A DNA stretch of 64,000 bases from Actinomycetota bacterium. GTDB taxonomy: Bacteria; Actinomycetota; Acidimicrobiia; Acidimicrobiales; JAJPHE01. Position 1 is the first letter of the stretch; each line of letters opens with the position of its first letter. The stretch is from contig JAJPHE010000126.1 in the NCBI GenBank assembly GCA_021325435.1, positions 1 through 64,000 on the forward strand, given 5' to 3'. The notes beneath the pieces were generated by a model. The model was given only the letters and a program-made list of their open reading frames with translations, had not been told where the DNA came from and ran no database searches. Shown here one piece after another: positions 12,233 through 42,100 of this stretch. Both the position numbers and the translations under genes were made by a program.

Positions 12233-12526
12233 TCAGCTCTCCATCTCCATCCACCGCCGCTCGGTGGACAGCACCTCGACGTCGGGCCGCGACCACACGA
12301 ACCGTTCCAGCTTGTCGAGCATCTCCTCGACCCGCGCGGGGCTGGAGGCCACCGCCGCCATCCCCAGGCAGGCCCGCTGCCACTGGTCCTGGTGGTCGAC
12401 CTCGGCGGCGGCCAACGAGTAACGGCGACGGGCCGCTTCGAGTATGGGTTTCACCAGCGCCCGCTTGGCCTTCAGCGAGCGACTCTCCGGAAGGTGCAGC
12501 TCGACCCGTAGGGCGGCTACGTGCGT
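12233..12526 (-). CDS. ylxP: DUF503 / YlxP-like protein with apparent ACG start
   Basis: This 97-residue DUF503 protein is conserved between infB and rbfA and is linked to ribosome biogenesis in other bacteria. The conserved core LPESRSLKAKR, AEVDHQDQWQRACLG and the C-terminal strand are present. Family members normally begin about two residues before the first strand, which here corresponds to an ACG codon (12524-12526). That codon follows a GGAGAGGGAG site and overlaps the last 10 bases of infB. The only standard in-frame start upstream is a GTG at 12604, which would add 26 unrelated residues inside infB. I used the ACG for the coordinates; this start is uncertain. Confidence 0.8.
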   Translation of the reverse strand, partial: THVAALRVELHLPESRSLKAKRALVKPILEAARRRYSLAAAEVDHQDQWQRACLGMAAVASSPARVEEMLDKLERFVWSRPDVEVLSTERRWMEMES

Positions 12527-15393
12527 GGGATCTCCCTCTCCTCGAAGGTCTCGATGATGTCGCCCTGGTGGAGATCCTGGAAGTCCGACAGCCCGATGCC
12601 GCACTCGAAGCCCTGCTGAACCTCGCGGACGTCGTCCTTGAAGCGCCGCAGGGAGGAGATGGCGCCCTTCCAGATGATGACGCCCTCGCGCAGGAACCGG
12701 ACCTTGGAGCCGCGGGTGATGACCCCGTTGCGGACGTAGCAGCCCGCCACCGCCCCGACCCGCGGTACCCGAAACACCTCGCGGACCTCGGCCTCGCCGG
12801 TGACGACCTCCTCGTACTCGGGGGCCAGCATGCCCACCATGGCCGCTTCGATGTCCTCGAGAACCTTGTAGATGATCTCGTAGGCCCGGATCTCCACGTC
12901 GCTGGCCTCGGCCATCTCGCGGGCCTTGCGGTCGGGTCGGACGTTGAAACCGATGATCGTGGCGTTCGAGGCGGCGGCCAGCCCCACATCGTTCTCGGTG
13001 GTGCCGCCCACCGCCCGGTGAACGAAGGCCAGCTTCACCTCGTCGCGCTCGAGCTTGCGCAGCGACTCGGTCAGCGCCTCCAGCGAGCCCTGCACGTCGG
13101 CCTTGAGGATGAGGTTGAGGGTGGCGACCTCTCCCCGCTGGATCTGCTGGAAGATGTCCTCCAGCTTGGCTCCCGCCGCCGTCGGCGTCGGCGCGTAGCC
13201 GGCAGCCCGGAACCGCTGCTCCCTCGCCTCACCGATCGTCCGGGCCGTGCCCTGGTCGGTCGTCACCCTGAACTCGTCGCCGGCCCGGGGCACGTCGTTG
13301 AACCCGAGCACCTGCACCGGCATCGCCGGCGCCGCCTCCTTGACGTTGTCGCCCCGGTCGTCGATGAGGGCTCTGACCTTCCCCCACGCCGCCCCGGCCA
13401 CGATGGGATCGCCCACCCGGAGGGTTCCGTTCTCCACCAGGACGGTGGCCACCGGACCCCGGCCCACGTCGAGATTGGCCTCGAGCACCGATCCGCGGCC
13501 GCGCCCCTCGGGGTTGGCGGTGAGCTCCTCGACCTCGGCGAGGACGAGGAGCTGCTCGAGCAGATCGTCGATGCCGAGGTTCTGCAGGGCGGAGATCTCC
13601 ACCATGATCGTGTCCCCGCCCCACTCCTCGGGCACCAGCCCCTGTTCGGACAGCTGCTGGCGGACCCGGTTGGGGTCGGCGTCCTCACGGTCGATCTTGT
13701 TGATCGCCACCACGATCGGCACCTCGGCCGCCTTGGCGTGGTTGAGCGCCTCCACCGTCTGGGGCATGACCCCGTCGTCGGCCGCCACCACCAGCACGGC
13801 GATGTCGGTCACCTGGGCGCCCCGCGCCCGCATGGCCGTGAAGGCCTCGTGGCCCGGCGTGTCGATGAAGGTGATCAGCCGACCGTCCTTCTCGACCTGG
13901 TAGGCGCCGATGTGCTGGGTGATGCCGCCAGCCTCACCGGCGACCACGTTGGTCTCGCGGATGCGGTCGAGCAGCAGCGTCTTGCCGTGGTCGACATGAC
14001 CCATGACCGTGATGATCGGCGGACGTGGACGCTGGAGGGAGTCGTCCTCCTCCTCGTCCTCGAAATAGCGGGCCTGGAGCTCGGCCTCCTTCTCCTCGCC
14101 CGGGTCGACCAGCCGCACGGTGGCGCCCAGCTCGGCGGCGAACAGCTCGATCATCTCGTCGGAGAGCGACTGCGTCGCCGTCACCATCTCGCCCTGGAGC
14201 AACAGGAAACGGACGACGTCGCCGGCGGACCGGAAGAGCTTGGGCCCCACCTCCTGGGCGGTCGACCCTCGCTCGATGATGACCTCGTCGGTCGGCACCG
14301 GCGCGTTCGACGGCGTGTAGACCGTCGGCAGCGTCGGCTCCAGCTCCTCGAGGTTGCGCCGGCGCCGACGCGACCTCCGCTGGGGCGGGCGTCCCCGGCC
14401 GGGGGGGCCGCCACCACGGGTGCCGGGGGGCGCGCCGCCGCCCGGGCGACCGCCGAAACCTCCGCCTCCTCCGCCGCCGCCAAAGCCGCCCCGGCCGCCG
14501 CCGAAGCCGCCGGTGCGTGCGCCCCCACCGCCGCCAGGCGCCCCGCCGGTGCGGGGCGGGCGGCCGGCCCCCATCGGCGGGCGACCCACCCCGGGCCCGG
14601 TCGGGCGGCCTCCGCCACCGGGCGGCGGGGGAATGGGCCGGCCCGACGGCGAGCGCGGCGGGCCGCCCGGGGGGGGCGGGATGGGCTTGCCGGTGGGCGA
14701 CAGCGGGGGTCGCCGGGCCCCCGGCGGGGGCGGGATGGGCTTGCCGGTGGAGGACGAGGTCGGGGGTCGGCGCGCCGGCGCTGCCTCCTGGCCGTCGTGG
14801 CGGGCGGCGGCCGCCGGGCGCGGAGCGGCCGGGCGGGGCTCCTGCTCGCTGGCCGGGCGGCTGGTGATCAGGCGGGGGTCGCGGCCCGAAGCGGGCGGGC
14901 GGGTGGCGGCGGGGCCGTCGGCGGCGGCGGGCCGTTCGGCGGCCGGACGTTCAGCGGCGGGGCGCTCCGGTGCGGCGGCAGCCGGCCGTTCGGGCGCCGG
15001 CCGGGGGGCGACGGGTGGTGCCTCGGCCGCGGCGGCGGGCTGCTCGGAGGGACGGGGCTGGGGCGCCGGGCGGCTCTCGGTGGCGACCCGGGCGGCGGGA
15101 CGTTCGGCGGGCTCCTCGGCGGGGCCCGGGGCCGGCGTCTCCGCCCTGGCCGGGGCCGGCTCGGCCTTCTCGGCGGCCGGGCGCGACTTGGCCGGCGCCG
15201 GCTCCTCCGGAGACTTCTCGCGGCGCAGGCCGTCGCGGTCGGCCTTGCGGCGGACCCGATCGGCCTGGGCGTCCTCGATGCTCGACGAATGGCTCTTGAC
15301 GCCGATGCCGAGCGACTCGCACAGGTCGAGCGCCTCTTTGTTCGTCAGCCCGAGCTCACGAGCCAGCTCGTAGACCCGGATCTTCTTCGGCAA
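12517..15393 (-). CDS. infB: Translation initiation factor IF-2
   Basis: IF-2 is the GTPase that brings initiator tRNA to the 30S subunit and joins the subunits. The 958-residue protein begins with TTG (15391-15393) and the N-terminal [14 protein letters not shown] subdomain. A long disordered Ala/Pro/Arg-rich region (about 60-330) follows, with a Pro-rich repeat and a glycine/arginine-rich stretch. The G domain has GHVDHGK near residue 460, DTPGHEAF near 508 and NKID. Two beta-barrel domains and the C2 domain complete it. It lies between ylxR and ylxP in the canonical nusA operon. Confidence 0.98.
14622..14758 (-). repeat. Imperfect repeats coding for a proline-rich GKPIPPPPG motif in IF-2
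   Basis: Three imperfect tandem copies encode (S/T)GKPIPPPPG or [10 protein letters not shown] in the disordered N-terminal part of IF-2, around residues 213-257. A glycine- and arginine-rich tract follows directly. The units are roughly 45-50 bases long and diverge at both the DNA and the protein level. Confidence 0.7.
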
Positions 15394-15478: not shown

Positions 15479-15727
15479 TCAGCAGCCGAGCTGAGCGCGG
15501 AGCCGGTCCACCATGTCGGCCGTGACCTGGACTCGCAACGCCCGGGAGAGGCCGTTCCTTCCGGTGGCCCGCTCGAGACAGCCGGGCGAGCCTCGGCACA
15601 GCCAGGCGCCCCGCCCAGGGAGGTTCCTGCCCACCACCAGGCCCTGGCCGTTGATGTGGACGACCCGCACGAGCTCGTCCTGTCCGGCCACCCTACGGCA
15701 CCCGACGCAGGTCCGGCCAGCGACTAT
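15479..15727 (-). CDS. ylxR: YlxR (DUF448) RNA-binding protein with apparent ATA start
   Basis: YlxR is a small nucleic-acid-binding protein that sits between nusA and infB. The conserved RTCVGCRR motif and GRGAWLCRGSPGCLE are present; the Cys residues fit the family. The expected N-terminus falls on ATA (15725-15727), which shares a 4-base ATAG overlap with the nusA stop codon and gives 82 residues. The only standard in-frame starts are GTG at 15826 and 15868, both inside the acidic tail of nusA, and they would add arginine/glycine-rich residues that are a shadow of that tail. The start is therefore uncertain, while the gene itself is not. Confidence 0.82.
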   Translation of the reverse strand: MVAGRTCVGCRRVAGQDELVRVVHINGQGLVVGRNLPGRGAWLCRGSPGCLERATGRNGLSRALRVQVTADMVDRLRAQLGC

Positions 15728-16916
15728 GGGGCCGCCCCGGGGTCTGCCCCTTCGGCGGACGGCTGCTCGGCTGGCGCCTCCTCGGCCGACGGCTCCTCGG
15801 CCGACGGCTCCTCGGCCGAGGCCCACTGCTCGGCGGACAGGGCCTCGCCACCCTCGGCCGGCTGCCACACCATCTGCCGTCCTCGTTCTGGACCCATTCG
15901 CCCTCGGCCCACTCCTCGCCGGAGTAGCCGGCCTCCTCCTCGGCCAGCTGGGTCTCGCTCTTGATGTCGATCCGCCAACCGGTCAACCGGGCGGCGAGCC
16001 GGGCGTTCTGGCCCTCCTTGCCGATGGCCAGGGACAACTGGAAATCGTGGACGATCACCGTGGCCGTGCCGGTCTCCTCGTCGAGGTGGACCTCCTTGAC
16101 CCGGGCCGGCTGCAGGGCACGGGCCACGAACTCGGCCGGGTCCTCGGAGAACGGGACGATGTCGACCTTCTCGCCTCGAAGCTCGTTGGTGACCATCCGC
16201 ACCCGGGCACCGCGGGCCCCGACGCAGGCGCCGACGGGGTCGACGTTGGCGTCGTTCGACCAGACGGCGATCTTGGTGCGGTGACCCGGCTCGCGGGCGC
16301 ACGCCTTTATCTCGACCACGCCGCTGCTGATCTCGGGGACCTCGAGCTCGAAGAGGCGCTTGATGAGGCCGGGATGGGTGCGGCTTACGACGATCTGGGG
16401 GCCTTTGGTCGTCTTGCGCACCTCGACGATGTAGGCCTTGAGGCGGGCGCCGTGCTCGTAGCGCTCGTAGGGGACCTGCTCGGCCTGGGGCAGCAGCGCC
16501 TCGACCTTGCCCAGGTCGAGCAACGTGTAGCGGTTGTCGCTCTGCTGGATGATGCCGGTGACGATGTCACCCTCGCGCCCGGCGTACTCCTCGTACTTGA
16601 GGTCGCGCTCGGCCTCGCGGATGCGCTGCAGGATCACCTGCTTGGCCGTCTGGGCGGCGATCCGGCCGAAGTCGTCGGGGGTGTCGTCCCACTCACGGGT
16701 CACGTTGCCGTCTTCGTCGAGCTCCTGGCCGTAGACCCGGATCTCGCCCGAGTCGGGGTCGATGGTGACCACCGCCTCCTCCGCCGCCTCGGGCATCCGC
16801 TTGTAGGCGGCGACGAGGGCGTTGGCCAGGGCGTCGAGGAGGGTCTCGACGGAGATGCCCTTGTCGCGGGCGATCATCTGGAGGGCCTCTAGGAACTCGA
16901 AGTTGGTCTTGCTCAT
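15724..16916 (-). CDS. nusA: Transcription termination/antitermination factor NusA (apparent frameshift near 3' end)
   Basis: NusA binds RNA polymerase and nascent RNA and tunes pausing and termination. The ATG at 16914-16916 overlaps the rimP stop. The N-terminal domain, S1 domain and two KH domains are intact up to about residue 346 (EWVQNEDGR). There the reading frame must shift by one base, near 15867-15872, to continue into a well-coded acidic tail (QPAEGGEALSAEQWA, then SAEEP repeats) ending at TAG 15724-15726. Without the shift, the frame runs on as an Arg/Pro-rich tail to 15693 with atypical third positions. One missing G, making TGGGTG into TGGTG, would explain it. This may be a sequencing error, a true mutation or recoding. 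Confidence 0.9.
15778..15820. repeat. 15-base tandem repeats in the nusA acidic tail
   Basis: Nearly three copies of a 15-base unit CTCCTCGGCCGACGG (plus strand) encode the SAEEP repeats of the NusA tail. Copies one and two are identical (15778-15792 and 15793-15807), and the third breaks off after 12 matching bases. Such repeats can vary in number by slippage. Confidence 0.85.
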
Positions 16917-17425
16917 CGGGTGGACGCTTTCCTGCGCTGGCGGTCGGGACGGCCGGGCTTGGGGGCCGGGCCCCACTCGAAAACGGTGCGGGCCCGCTCG
17001 ATCTGGTCGTAGGAGAGGCGCCGTGGGGAGGAGCCGTCCGGCGCGCCGTCGGGGAGCAGATCGATTCCGTCGTCGTCTGCGCCGACCAGGCTGCCCTTCA
17101 CTCTCCGGTCGCCCTCCACCCCGGCGTGGGTGCGAACCGACACGGCGCTGCCGACGAAGCGGCGGAACTGCTCGGGCGTTCGCAACGGTCGCTCGAGACC
17201 CGGGCTCGACACCTCGAGCTGGTAACGGTCCTTGATGGGCTCGGCCGCGTCGAGGGCAGAGGAGATGGCCGGGGTCACCGCGGCGATGGCGTCCAGGTCG
17301 ACGCCGCCGGGCCGATCGACCGAAAGCCGGAGCAACCCGGGGCGGACCTCCACGTCGACCAGCTCGAGACCCGACGAGGCGAGGATCGGCTCGACAAGCT
17401 CGCGGACCAGCTCATCCGGGCCCAT
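16913..17425 (-). CDS. rimP: Ribosome maturation factor RimP
   Basis: RimP acts in 30S subunit maturation. The 170-residue protein has the family pattern: the N-terminal VDVEVRPGLLRLSVDRPGGVDLD region, the LEVSSPGLERPLRTPEQFRRFVG signature (about residues 70-92), and an SH3-like C-terminal part ending in a basic tail. The ATG at 17425 is preceded by GAGGAGG. It is the first gene of the nusA-infB operon and overlaps nusA by 4 bases (ATGA). A leader with a terminator hairpin lies upstream. Confidence 0.95.
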   Translation of the reverse strand: MGPDELVRELVEPILASSGLELVDVEVRPGLLRLSVDRPGGVDLDAIAAVTPAISSALDAAEPIKDRYQLEVSSPGLERPLRTPEQFRRFVGSAVSVRTHAGVEGDRRVKGSLVGADDDGIDLLPDGAPDGSSPRRLSYDQIERARTVFEWGPAPKPGRPDRQRRKASTR

Positions 17426-17448
17426 CTCACCTCCTCACTGGTCAAGGA

Positions 17449-17479
17449 CCAAACAAAAGCGTGGGCGCAAGCCCACGCT
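17449..17479 (-). terminator. Intrinsic terminator/attenuator in the rimP-nusA leader
   Basis: On the minus strand AGCGTGGGC-TTGC-GCCCACGCT forms a perfect 9-base stem with a 4-base loop (17458-17479), followed by TTTGTTTGG. This is a convincing intrinsic terminator. It lies between the promoter at 17503-17508 and the rimP start at 17425. No gene ends here on this strand, so it probably acts as an attenuator of the operon, perhaps through NusA itself (inference). Confidence 0.75.
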
Positions 17480-17502
17480 CCGCCGGAAGGACCGGCCCCG
17501 AA

Positions 17503-17508
17503 ATTATA
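17503..17508 (-). promoter_or_regulatory. Extended -10 promoter of the rimP-nusA-infB operon
   Basis: The minus strand reads TGATATAAT, a perfect TATAAT hexamer with a TGN extension and no recognisable -35. Transcription would start near 17496 and give a leader of about 70 bases that contains the terminator hairpin. A perfect -10 is striking in so GC-rich a region. Confidence 0.7.
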
Positions 17509-17568
17509 TCAGTGCCTGCCCCGCCCGGCCGGCGCCCACTGGCGTTCTCGGGGCCGGTGCACGCCCGT

Positions 17569-17588: not shown

Positions 17589-18815
17589 TCAGAACTCGGT
17601 GCCGCACCACGGCGCCGGGTCGCTGCCGAGCATCAGGTCGGCCCGGGCCAGAGCCCCGGGGCGCAGCTCGGCGAGCCGCCCGGCCCGCGCCAGGGAGGAG
17701 GGCCGGACGCCGCCTAGGAGGACCGATCCCAGCTCGGCCGGGCCCAGAGCCAGGTCGGCTGGGCACGACTTCTCGTAGCGGCAGGAGGCGCCGTCGGGCC
17801 CACCCTCCACCACCAGGTGGCCCTCGTTCCACGGGCACAGCTCGTCGCGGATCTCCAGGCACAGCTCGCCTTCGGCCCGGTAGCGGCGGGCGGCCAGGGC
17901 GGCGGCGGCGTCCACCGGTCGGCACCACAGATGGTCCGCCACCCGCCGGGTGCGCAGCTGGCGGCCGTCGACCAGCCGCCACCGCAGCGGGTCCTCCACC
18001 GGGCGGCCTTCGAGCTTGACCTTGGCGACGAGGTCGATCGACAGCAGATAGGACACCAGGGCGGCCTCGGCCTGCGGGTTGGTGGCCCACAGGTCCGAGA
18101 CGGTCAGCTGGGCGTCGGGCATGCTGTCGGTCCATTCGTCGCGGAACCGGTAGCTGGCGTAGCCGTCCACCTCGCCGCCGCGACGGTGGACGACGAAGAA
18201 GCGGCTGCCGTCCTGATCGGCCCACGGCTGGATGGCCTCCACCGAGGTGCGCCACCACCCTTCCGTGCGGCTCACCTCGCCTACCTGGGCTCGCCGGTAG
18301 GACTCGTAGGCCCCGGCGACCAGCCCGGGCACGGCGCCGCCCTCGACCAGCTCGACCCCCTCGGCCCGGGCGTCGTCCCCCAGCCGGGCCTCGCGCCGGC
18401 GCAGCTCGTACTCGGCGGTATAGGTGGCGGGCCCGTACCCGAAGCGTCCGTAGATCCCCGCCTCGCTGGCAGTGAGGACGGCGAGCGGCTCACCCCTCCG
18501 ACGGACGTCGTCGAGCTGGCAGCGCATCAGGGCGGACAGGACCCCTCGCCGACGGTGGGTGGGAAGCACCCCGACGTAGCTGACGGCGGCCGCCGGCACT
18601 GACGCCAGGCCCGGCAGGGTGACCTCGAACGAGAACGACCCGGCCGTCCCCACAAGCCGGTCGCCCTCGAAGGCGGCCAGGCTGCGGTCGGCCTCGAACA
18701 CCGGCCGGTGGCTATCGAGCACCCGGTCGTCGACCTTCCCGCCGAAGGCGGCGAAGTCGACCCGGGCGAAGTCGATGAACTCGTCGTCGGAGACGGGGCG
18801 GATGTCGATGGGCAC
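17589..18815 (-). CDS. eis: Eis-family GNAT acetyltransferase
   Basis: This 408-residue protein has the three-part Eis layout: an N-terminal GNAT domain with the acetyl-CoA loop (VGVLPTHRRRGVLSALM, about residues 81-97), a second degenerate GNAT domain, and an SCP2-like C-terminal domain. Tyr/Phe residues in IYGRFGYGPATY fit the expected active site. The chain ends in Phe, as in mycobacterial Eis, where the C-terminal carboxylate takes part in catalysis. Known members acetylate lysines and aminoglycoside amines. It follows ispG after about 39 bases and precedes the rimP leader. The natural substrate is unknown. Confidence 0.88.
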   Translation of the reverse strand: MPIDIRPVSDDEFIDFARVDFAAFGGKVDDRVLDSHRPVFEADRSLAAFEGDRLVGTAGSFSFEVTLPGLASVPAAAVSYVGVLPTHRRRGVLSALMRCQLDDVRRRGEPLAVLTASEAGIYGRFGYGPATYTAEYELRRREARLGDDARAEGVELVEGGAVPGLVAGAYESYRRAQVGEVSRTEGWWRTSVEAIQPWADQDGSRFFVVHRRGGEVDGYASYRFRDEWTDSMPDAQLTVSDLWATNPQAEAALVSYLLSIDLVAKVKLEGRPVEDPLRWRLVDGRQLRTRRVADHLWCRPVDAAAALAARRYRAEGELCLEIRDELCPWNEGHLVVEGGPDGASCRYEKSCPADLALGPAELGSVLLGGVRPSSLARAGRLAELRPGALARADLMLGSDPAPWCGTEF

Positions 18816-39155: not shown

Positions 39156-42100
39156 TCAGGCGCCGGCGGCGACCTTCTCGCTGATGACCCGGCTGGAGCC
39201 GCCCGGCTGCATCGTCACCCCGTAGAGGCAGTCGGCGGCCTCCATGGTGCGCTTCTGGTGGGTGACGATGAGGAGTTGGGCCTCGTCGCGGAACTCGCGC
39301 ACCAGGTCGATGAAGCGATGGAGGTTCACGTCATCGAGGGCCGCTTCGACCTCGTCCATCAGGTAGAAGGGCGAAGGGCGGCTGCGGAACACGGCGAACA
39401 GGAAGGCGATGGCGGTCAGCGACCGCTCCCCGCCGGACAGCAGCGAGAGGCGCCGCACGTTCTTCCCCGACGGCCGGCCCTCGATCTCGACGCCGGTCTC
39501 CAGCAGATTCTCCGGGTCGGTGAGACGCAGCTGGCCGGAGCCTCCCGGAAAGAGGGTGGAGAACAGGTCCGAGAAGTTCGCCGACACGTCGGCGTAGGCG
39601 GCGGCGAACACCTCCACGATCTCGGTGTCGACGGCCCGGATGACCTTGGCCAGCTCGCGGCGGCTCGACTTCACGTCCTCGAGCTGGCCTTCGAGGAAGC
39701 CGTGACGCTCCTCCAGGGCGGCGTACTCCTCGAGGGCGAGGGGGTTGATGGGCCCCAGCAGACGCAGCTCGCGCTCGAGGTCGCGCAGCCGGGCCTCGGG
39801 CGAAGCCCCGTCGGGCATCTCCGGTCGGGGCGCGGCCTTGGCCGCGTCCGGCTCACAGTCGAGGTCGCGCCGGATGGTCTCCACCACCGCCTCGAGGCGC
39901 ATGCGGGCCTCGGCTTCCTCGAGGGCGCCCTTCTGGACCCGGTCGCGGATCTGCTCGAGGGTTCGCTCGGCCTCGGAGCGAGAGCGCCGGAGCCCGTCGA
40001 GGTGGGCGGCCGCCGCCCGGGTGTCCTCCGCCTGGCGGCGCCGGCGGTCGCGCACGTCCGCGATCAGCTCTTCCAGGACGGCCGAGTGGCCGGACACGGT
40101 CTCCGCCAGCCGCTCGACGGCGGCCAGCGAGCGCTCGATGGCGACCCGGCGGGCGGCGGCCCGCTCGCGCTCGGCCACGTTCGAGCGCAGCCGCTCCTCG
40201 ACCTCGGCGAGGCGTTGGGAGAGGACAGAGCGTCGCTCCTCGAGACCGGCGGCCCGTACCTCGAGGTCGGAGCGGAGGGCGGCGGCCGCCACCACCAGCT
40301 CGTCGAGGCGCCGGCGCGCCTCGCGGCGTTCGGCGGCCCGCTCGGTCTGAACCCGTTCGGCTTCCTCCAGCTCCGGCAGGCGAGCCTCGAGGTCGGCCAG
40401 GGAACGCTCCTCTTCGGCGGCGCGGGCCTCGGCCTCACCCAGCTGGCGGGCCAGCGACTCGTCCTCGGCCTCCAGCTCGGCCCGCTGGGCGGTCAGGCTG
40501 GCCAGCTCGGAACGGTTGCGAGCGGCGGTGGATCCCCGTTCGGCGGCGGCCCGGGTGGCGACGTCCTCGTCTTGGCGGGCCTGGCTCAGGCGGGCCCGGG
40601 CCGCTGTCAGCGCCTCTGCGGACCGGGCGGCGTCGGCGGCTGCCTCGCCGGCCCGCCGGCGGGCCTCCTCGAGGGCGGCGCCGGTCGCTCCGGGTCCGGC
40701 CGCTCCGGTCCGCCAGCCGCGGGGCCCGAACCGGTGCCCCTCCCTGGTGACGGCGACGACGGCCGGGGCGTCGGTGGCGAGCCCCACCGCGTCCGACCAG
40801 GTGGCGGCGACGACCACGCCACCGAGGAGGGCGTCGAGGAGCTCGCCGACCCCGGGGTGCGAGGAGCGGACATGGGACCGGACCAGCTCGGCGCCCGACG
40901 GCACGGCCCGTCCGGTGGATCCTTCGCCGTCGGGCCGGCGCAGACCGAGGGGCAGCAGGGCGCCCCGCGCGTCTTGCTCGTGGAGCCGCGCCACCGCCGC
41001 CCGGGCGGCGGGGGGCCCGTCCACGACGACGGCGGCCACCGCGTCTCCCAGGGCGGCCTCGAACGCCGCCTCCCATCCGGGGTCCACCTCGACCAGGTCG
41101 AGCAGGGTGCCGACGATGCCGTCCATGCCGGCCAGGCGGGCGGCCCCGGCCCGGGCGGCAGCCTCGTCGAGGGCGAGCGCCAGGGCCTCGGCCCGGGCCG
41201 ACCACGAGTGGCTGGAGCGCTCGGCGGCTCGCGACTCGGCCTCGGCCCGCTCGGCGGCAGCCTCGGCCGCCGCCCGGGCGGACGTGGCCTCCTCGACGGA
41301 GCGGGCCAGCTCCTCGGCGGAGCCGGATGCCACCGCCAACTCCTGCTCGAGGCGGGCGACCTCGGCGCCCAGGCGGGCCTTGCGCTCGGCTAAGGCGGTG
41401 CGCCGGGCGGCCAGGCGAGACATCTCCGCCCGGTCTCGCTCGAGGGCGGATCGGCGGCCGGCGACCGTGGCCCGCAGCTCGGCGGCGGACGAGTCGGGCG
41501 CCTCCTCGTCCCCTCCCCACCGGGCGGTGAAGGCGTCTCGCTCCCGTTCGACCTTGAGCTCGGCCTCCTCCACCCGGCCGACCTCCTCGGCCAGCGAGCT
41601 GGCGCCCCGGTCGACCTCGGCCAGCTGGGTGGTGAGGGCGGCGGCATCGGCCTCGAGGGAGGCGACCACGCCCTCGTCGCGGGAGGCGGCGAGGTCTCGC
41701 TCCAGGGACCGGCGACGCTCGGCCAGCAGGGCGGTGAGGCCCCGAGCCCGTTGGCGGGCGCTCTCCAGGCGTCCGAGGGTGTCGGCCAGGTCGTCGTTGG
41801 CCGCCGATGCCGACACCGCGTCCTCGGCCTGGCGCACTTCGGCGTCGAGGCCGGCCAGACGCTGCTTCACCTCGACCTCGTTGGTGGCCAGCAGCCGCCG
41901 GCTGTCCGCCGCGGCGGCCAGCCGGTGCTCGAGGGAGGCGACCTCGCGCCCGGCGACGTGCAGGCGCAGGTCGCGCACGTGACCGGCGAGCTCGGCGTGG
42001 CGGCGGGCCGCTTCGGCCTGCTTCTCGAGGGGACGGAGCTGACGGCGAACCTCGCGGAGAAGGTCGTTGAGCCGGGTGAGGTTGGCCTCGGTCGACTCGA

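Follow-up and report, generated by a model that had tools for sequence, protein, structure and literature searches.

Upstream of the rimP-nusA-infB operon in the window, by which we mean the whole 64-kb stretch of DNA analyzed here, we delineated a leader terminator (attenuator) that is strongly supported by its comparative pattern. The reading we favor, at a probability of about two in three, is an intrinsic terminator of the nusA operon at which transcription would terminate in part, with NusA as the best-candidate effector, its response being extrapolated from other bacteria. The attenuator reading follows from the conservation of the element, from its site between a conserved −10 element and the first gene, and from the divergent orientation of the upstream gene in two related loci. 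NusA is the best candidate because of the precedents in B. subtilis, S. agalactiae and E. coli, and an autogenous role for it is likely. What is new here is that a leader terminator of this kind appears to belong with nusA and not with rimP, the gene it usually adjoins. The features of the region are as follows.

17589–18815, minus strand: eis-like GNAT acetyltransferase gene, co-directional with the operon and upstream of the leader
17503–17511, minus strand: extended −10 element TGaTATAAT of the putative operon promoter, read from the sequence (TATAAT at 17508–17503, TG at 17511–17510)
17482–17496, minus strand: small 5′ hairpin GCCGG-UCCUU-CCGGC, a predicted fold adjoining the inferred transcription start at about 17496
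17456–17481, minus strand: terminator hairpin GGAGCGTGGGC-TTGC-GCCCACGCTTT, predicted from folding, a pair scan and comparative counts
17477–17471 paired with 17466–17460, minus strand: conserved core CGUGGGC/GCCCACG of the terminator
17451–17458, minus strand: interrupted U-tract TTTTGTTT, read from the sequence and compatible as well with TTNTTT, the pause motif of B. subtilis NusG
17430–17434, minus strand: Shine-Dalgarno-like GGAGG of rimP, read from the sequence and lying outside the terminator hairpin
16913–17425, minus strand: rimP, ribosome maturation factor (PF02576 over the cut-off), with its ATG at 17425
15693–16916, minus strand: nusA, with matches to the NusA_N, S1 and KH domains
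12517–15393, minus strand: infB (IF-2), downstream gene of the operon

Read along the minus strand, the leader runs from the −10 element through the small hairpin, the terminator hairpin, the tail TTTTGTTT and the GGAGG to the rimP ATG. The hairpin follows the extended −10 element after 21 nt and consists of 11 pairs, 9 contiguous Watson-Crick and 2 G-U; from its end at 17456 to the start of rimP at 17425 the spacing is 30 nt. The stop codon of rimP overlaps the start of nusA. The preliminary description of this DNA had named a perfect TATAAT with TG extension, a 9-base-pair hairpin with a T-run shortly past it, and a position ahead of the first gene of a NusA-encoding operon; all of these were found again, the identities of rimP, nusA and infB by domain matches, although the window rimP matches the NCBIfam RimP models below their curated cut-offs. 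The transcription start was placed by the position of the −10 element. There is no −35 consensus, and a scan for two-hexamer promoters over 12 kb found none, so the call of a putative operon promoter rests on the extended −10 element together with the −10 elements in 96 of 102 contexts of relatives (see below). A single tRNA gene, tRNA-Asp (gtc) at 40573–40660, was found in the window.

The hairpin alone is predicted to fold with −19.5 kcal/mol, and folding of the 80-nt leader gave z = −2.58, with 3 of 200 shuffles equally stable. A loose terminator scan over 12 kb returned two sites against 2.4 expected from shuffles; in view of this lack of a local excess, the case for a terminator rests on strength and conservation. 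Under a strict criterion, applied without a shuffle control (a stem of 8 or more contiguous pairs with 4 or more G-C, and 6 or more T in 8), the leader hairpin is the sole site on both strands of the 64 kb. The bare palindrome GTGGGC-N3–10-GCCCAC was dropped as a special genomic signal, since the genome holds it at 20 places and the reversed control at 27; only the hairpin with its tail is special. A model of the hairpin and tail of the close relatives (R1) recovered the leader in the own genome with an e-value of 1.3e-8 and the next different place with 0.2, and this search found no regulon sharing the hairpin. No part of the window exceeded any Rfam gathering score, and three matches to snoRNA and CRISPR models within 500 nt around the hairpin were discarded as chance. 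At an e-value of at most 1, the Rfam model RF01770 (rimP) matched nothing in the own genome and 8 of 14 controls, one of them over the cut-off. In passing, we noted a palindrome, GTGGGCGGACGTTGCCCAC, that recurs at contig ends in the own genome (G000 C22:46–64 and C41:44–62), perhaps an assembly-breaking repeat.

The preliminary description had proposed to look for the same hairpin upstream of rimP in other Actinobacteria; it was found upstream of nusA both near and far. Among close relatives, mostly Acidimicrobiaceae, Acidimicrobiales or Actinomycetes MAGs, we collected 111 loci (one from one search, 30 of 58 NusA-bearing genomes among 59 searched, and the best 80 of 398 from another). One of them (L028) had no upstream sequence, leaving 110 regions in which the window is counted twice (L001, L002). 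The hairpin, as CGTGGG...CCCAYG or a close variant, was present in 108 of these 110 regions, a count from a 1,300-nt pattern search without a shuffle control of its own; as the sources overlap, the 108 regions represent 101 distinct contexts. A T-rich tail, with at least 5 T in the 11-nt stretch starting 2 nt past the core, follows in 98 of the 101. Of 102 distinct contexts, 96 have a −10 element (TATAVT, TATGAT or TATGCT) no more than 90 nt upstream of the core, compared with 5.5% of composition shuffles; the distance is 37–43 nt in 70 of these 96 and 25 nt in the window. One of the two misses (L057) is on a contig that ends 388 nt upstream. The other (L003), from the same family, has no GUGGGC stem and carries another hairpin with TTTTTT, CCGGCTGGTCTCCGGGCCGGCTTTTTT, directly after its −10 element, as if termination were the feature that is kept.

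In 71 aligned hairpins, the pair just outside the core is G-C in 49, A-U in 20 and G-U in 2. This alignment (A1) was picked from the 101 contexts by CGTGGG...CCC patterns, which largely accounts for its invariant core pairs. In eight loci (L021, L036, L063, L067, L070, L083, L085, L092) the GUGGG/CCCAC core is kept and the top of the hairpin has grown to an insert of 19–26 nt. A further stretch, GCCGTTCRGT or GCTGTCCGGTC, lies a few nt past the −10 element, near the predicted transcript start, and is shared within subgroups (for example L054, L059, L066, L091); a loose pattern for GTTCRGT/GTCCGGT-like stretches just past the −10 element, used without a chance control, matched 51 of 102 contexts.

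To cover the phylum, we used 296 genomes, 293 of them with NusA, and hand-picked 150 upstream regions, one to nine per family. Four were dropped as too short (L194, L198, L233, L271), and 21 of the remaining 146 come from same-order genomes. Taking the single best hairpin per region, we found GGG opposite CCC with a T tail at rimP distance in 98 of the 146 regions and in 0 of 438 dinucleotide shuffles; the 8 of 146 antisense segments that matched are read as complements of the same hairpins. Any terminator at all was present in 113 of 146 regions versus 27 of 438 shuffles. Five further regions have a GGG/CCC hairpin directly before nusA (a post hoc look at 38 of the 48 misses, without a shuffle control), bringing the total to 103 of 146 regions and 44 of 61 families. 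With the same-order genomes excluded, it is seen in 85 of 125 regions, which cover 39 of 55 families.

Within the 113 terminators, which were chosen by structure and T-tail alone, 91 have the stem sequence GYGGG/CCCRC. Across 75 aligned hairpins (alignment A2), six pairs show 80 cells with two-sided pair changes, compared with 9.3 for shuffles and no more than 12 for slid structures, and this excess argues that the stem is selected. A2 comprises 75 of 79 hairpins picked by GYGGG/CCCRC, so its invariant core pairs are largely due to selection of the sample, and 91 of 113 is the unselected count. Fold and stem sequence both look selected, with GUGGG/CCCAC strongly favored and the outer pairs covarying. 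For the reality of the element, we consider this comparative evidence decisive.

The remaining 43 of 146 regions fell short of the criteria, and no case was seen in 17 of 61 families, namely f35, f60, f62, f63 (four regions), f65, f70, f71 (five), f80 (two), f85 (four), f89, f92 (three), f107, f109, f110 (two), f111, f113 and f115; several of the 17 are single genomes. Hairpins that miss the criteria occur in f35 (GUGGCC/GGCCAC) and in f113 (GUGGGUUGC), and one locus with a GUGGG hairpin (L292) was counted as a miss because only the best hairpin per region was scored. The four f63 regions (L182–L185) all have a terminator with an inverted CCCC/GGGG stem before rimP, for instance GAAGCCCCTC...GAGGGGCTTC. 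Hairpins with a poor or missing U-tract were seen in L006, L075 and L087 among the close relatives and in L173, L206, L244 and L254 in the phylum sample, where L173, L206 and L254 have the GUGGGC hairpin; in such copies the hairpin may serve something besides intrinsic termination. The model R1, built from close relatives, reaches little of the phylum, matching 67 of 296 genomes at an e-value of at most 0.1 and none of the other 229. At an e-value of at most 0.001 it matched 22 genomes, in 18 of them upstream of nusA by coordinates and in 4 elsewhere (G092, G136, G270, G330), where a quick look gave no evident leader context; the tally of matches between 0.001 and 0.1 is incomplete. Two of the 18, G194 and G204, have their better or sole R1 match on the opposite strand.

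In ten loci the element lies directly before nusA without an adjacent rimP. Five belong to close relatives (L010, L017, L041, L084, L086), where the GGGC core begins 42–110 nt before nusA and rimP does not lie between. No match to PF02576 (RimP_N) at an e-value of at most 0.01 was found in these five genomes, two of which are 92 and 94% complete, while the same search matched 6 of 6 comparison genomes and 10 of 14 named controls. The other five are the five regions of f64 and f66 (L186, L188–L191), with the hairpin about 50–66 nt before nusA. Here G060 had no RimP_N match at an e-value of at most 0.01, and six f66 genomes had no match over the cut-off, with one sub-threshold match of 17.4 bits (G077); RimP_N was present in seven comparison genomes. 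On a tree of 104 NusA proteins, the lack of rimP requires two separate changes among the close relatives. The ten loci probably represent three or more lineages, f64 and f66 being counted by family labels and not by the tree. Because loci were collected through nusA, they can show that the element needs no rimP and could not show the reverse. Since the hairpin immediately precedes nusA in these rimP-less loci, RimP is not required as a regulator. The gene upstream of the hairpin in L017 and L084 is a divergent PilZ-domain gene, so the position of the hairpin there does not suit termination of an upstream gene.

From the anatomy of the leader and its conservation we propose the following course of events. 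RNA polymerase starting from the extended −10 element would meet the hairpin and U-tract after about 45 nt; part of the transcripts would stop in the leader, and the remainder would continue into rimP-nusA-infB. Forbidding the hairpin raises the predicted energy of the window leader from −37.5 to about −30 kcal/mol, a cost of about 7, and folding of this leader gave no competing fold of like stability that could serve as an antiterminator. This cost and the lack of a rival fold in the window leader make a protein acting on the polymerase at the terminator likelier than an RNA switch, and such a protein would most likely control the set point. When the hairpin is excluded from the fold, the prediction pairs its 3′ arm with the ribosome-binding region and the opening codons of rimP (window 17420–17497). 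By analogy with other bacteria, plentiful NusA would aid formation of the hairpin in the exit channel and increase termination in the leader, and scarce NusA would allow more read-through. According to a review, B. subtilis NusA is autoregulated via NusA-stimulated termination in its own leader (PMC12288461). The preliminary description had concluded autogenous attenuation; its attenuator is strongly supported by conservation, position and the divergent genes of L017 and L084, and NusA is the likely effector.

The element was absent from the four sampled f85 genomes under the structure and T-tail criterion. The NusA proteins of two f85 loci, compared with solved structures, had their best match in 1k0r, which we take to be M. 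tuberculosis NusA (very close for L282, close for L284). A structure of M. tuberculosis NusA with RNA is named in the reference list of the review PMC12288462, according to which mycobacterial NusA does not enhance intrinsic termination; stimulation by NusA therefore cannot be assumed in this phylum. An element missing where NusA is reportedly without termination activity would fit NusA as the effector, in this one family. A more far-reaching version, which we put forward tentatively and consider improbable as it stands, is that the GUGGG/CCCAC duplex is a sequence-specific signal read by NusA (or by NusA and the exit channel of the polymerase). The terminator would then be adapted to the very protein whose gene it controls; it would have stayed with nusA as the phylum diversified and would have disappeared from lineages, mycobacteria among them, in which NusA has ceased to stimulate termination. 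In several loci (among others L266, L267, L261, L263, L264, L268 and L272; families f76, f96, f82, f88, f99, f108 and f109) NusA was matched twice within a single open frame, once by the N-terminal domain and once by the S1-KH part, with the linker unaligned or inserted.

The main rival explanation, unlikely in our judgment, is that the efficiency of the terminator is set by NusG, or by NusA with NusG, via a TTNTTT-like pause motif past the hairpin. B. subtilis NusG reads TTNTTT (PMC12288461), and NusG of mycobacteria is described as pro-pausing and as stimulating termination at suboptimal U-tracts, which mycobacterial NusA does not (PMC12288462). The tail of the window includes TTGTTT, and as a discriminator between NusA and NusG the tail sequence is divided, with TTNTTT after the hairpin in 45 of 102 distinct contexts and missing from 57. 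Against NusG also count the f85 genomes, which lack the element and whose NusA is M. tuberculosis-like in the two compared, and the genes identified in the operon, which do not include nusG, so that the logic of feedback would be missing.

Still less probable is a fixed partial terminator or mRNA-stabilizing hairpin that holds a constant level without feedback. Neither an antiterminator nor a ligand-binding domain is seen, the anatomy alone demands no regulation, and some copies have no U-tract; the GYGGG/CCCRC shared by 91 of the 113 terminators chosen blind to sequence, however, exceeds what a passive terminator should need, an argument made in PMC2965389 for its own motif. It is very improbable that the hairpin simply terminates the upstream eis-like gene and that the −10 element is there by coincidence. 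The earlier statement that no upstream gene needs termination did not hold, as the co-directional eis-like gene ends 107 nt upstream and its read-through would meet the terminator too, but a conserved −10 element lies between that gene and the hairpin. The hairpin moreover stays with nusA beside varied neighbors, not only the eis-like gene of the window and the divergent PilZ genes but also proS-like (L037) and ispG-like (L086) genes, the latter two judged by eye only. The least credible explanation is feedback by RimP, an RNA-binding protein named as a possibility in PMC2965389 and encoded by the first gene in most genomes seen, on its own leader, given the ten loci without adjacent rimP, the negative RimP_N searches there, and the two separate changes on the NusA tree with f64 and f66 as further cases. 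As a general mechanism it is contradicted; to save it, RimP would have to be divergent or unassembled in every one of the rimP-less genomes.

The primary paper on the autoregulation of B. subtilis nusA by leader termination is reportedly that of Mondal et al. 2016. The element belongs to a known type: it is an actinobacterial member of the rimP-leader attenuator, a promoter-proximal terminator with a GGGc...gCCC stem for which NusA was already proposed as the feedback regulator (Naville and Gautheret 2010, PMC2965389). It shares with the rimP-leader the position of a terminator in the leader of rimP-nusA-infB, the U-stretch, the GGGc(...)gCCC stem (GGGC-TTGC-GCCC in the window) and a distance to the gene start of 4–130 nt (30 nt in the window). 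The rimP-leader has no visible antiterminator; here, folding of the window leader gave no rival fold of like stability, but many relatives carry the GTTCRGT/GTCCGGT-like stretch past the −10 element. It differs in its longer favored core GUGGGC/GCCCAC, in its occurrence directly before nusA where rimP is missing, and in being unmatched by RF01770. The supplementary species lists of PMC2965389 lay outside this comparison, and actinobacterial cases may already be listed there. A literature search aimed at such leaders in Actinobacteria led to this paper only; the excerpts of PMC8060035 and PMC10319736 hold nothing on this leader.

With B. subtilis the element shares the operon, the leader terminator and the proposed effector (PMC12288461), but the NusA response is here extrapolated, and mycobacterial NusA is reportedly inactive at intrinsic terminators (PMC12288462). 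The RimP-NusA-IF2 operon gbs0413-gbs0418 of S. agalactiae likewise has a termination site, 31 nt past its start; this is a case from a Firmicute, where short and long transcripts sharing one start were seen by RNA-seq, whereas ours was recognized in genome sequences (PMC4448216). NusA also lowers the expression of its own operon, metY-nusA-infB, in E. coli (as cited in PMC2965389 and PMC4448216); unlike here, that operon contains metY, and several Gammaproteobacteria have a tandem terminator and an antiterminator instead of a single short leader.

These results document that a predicted attenuator is widespread across a phylum in which intrinsic terminators are described as scarce (PMC2965389, PMC12288462). 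The rimP-less genomes separate the two proposed regulators, RimP and NusA, and leave NusA. The presence of the element in 44 of 61 families and its absence from the four f85 genomes offer a test of whether the termination activity of NusA co-evolves with the leader terminator. Through this short stop signal in the RNA, the cell can probably keep its own NusA in check.
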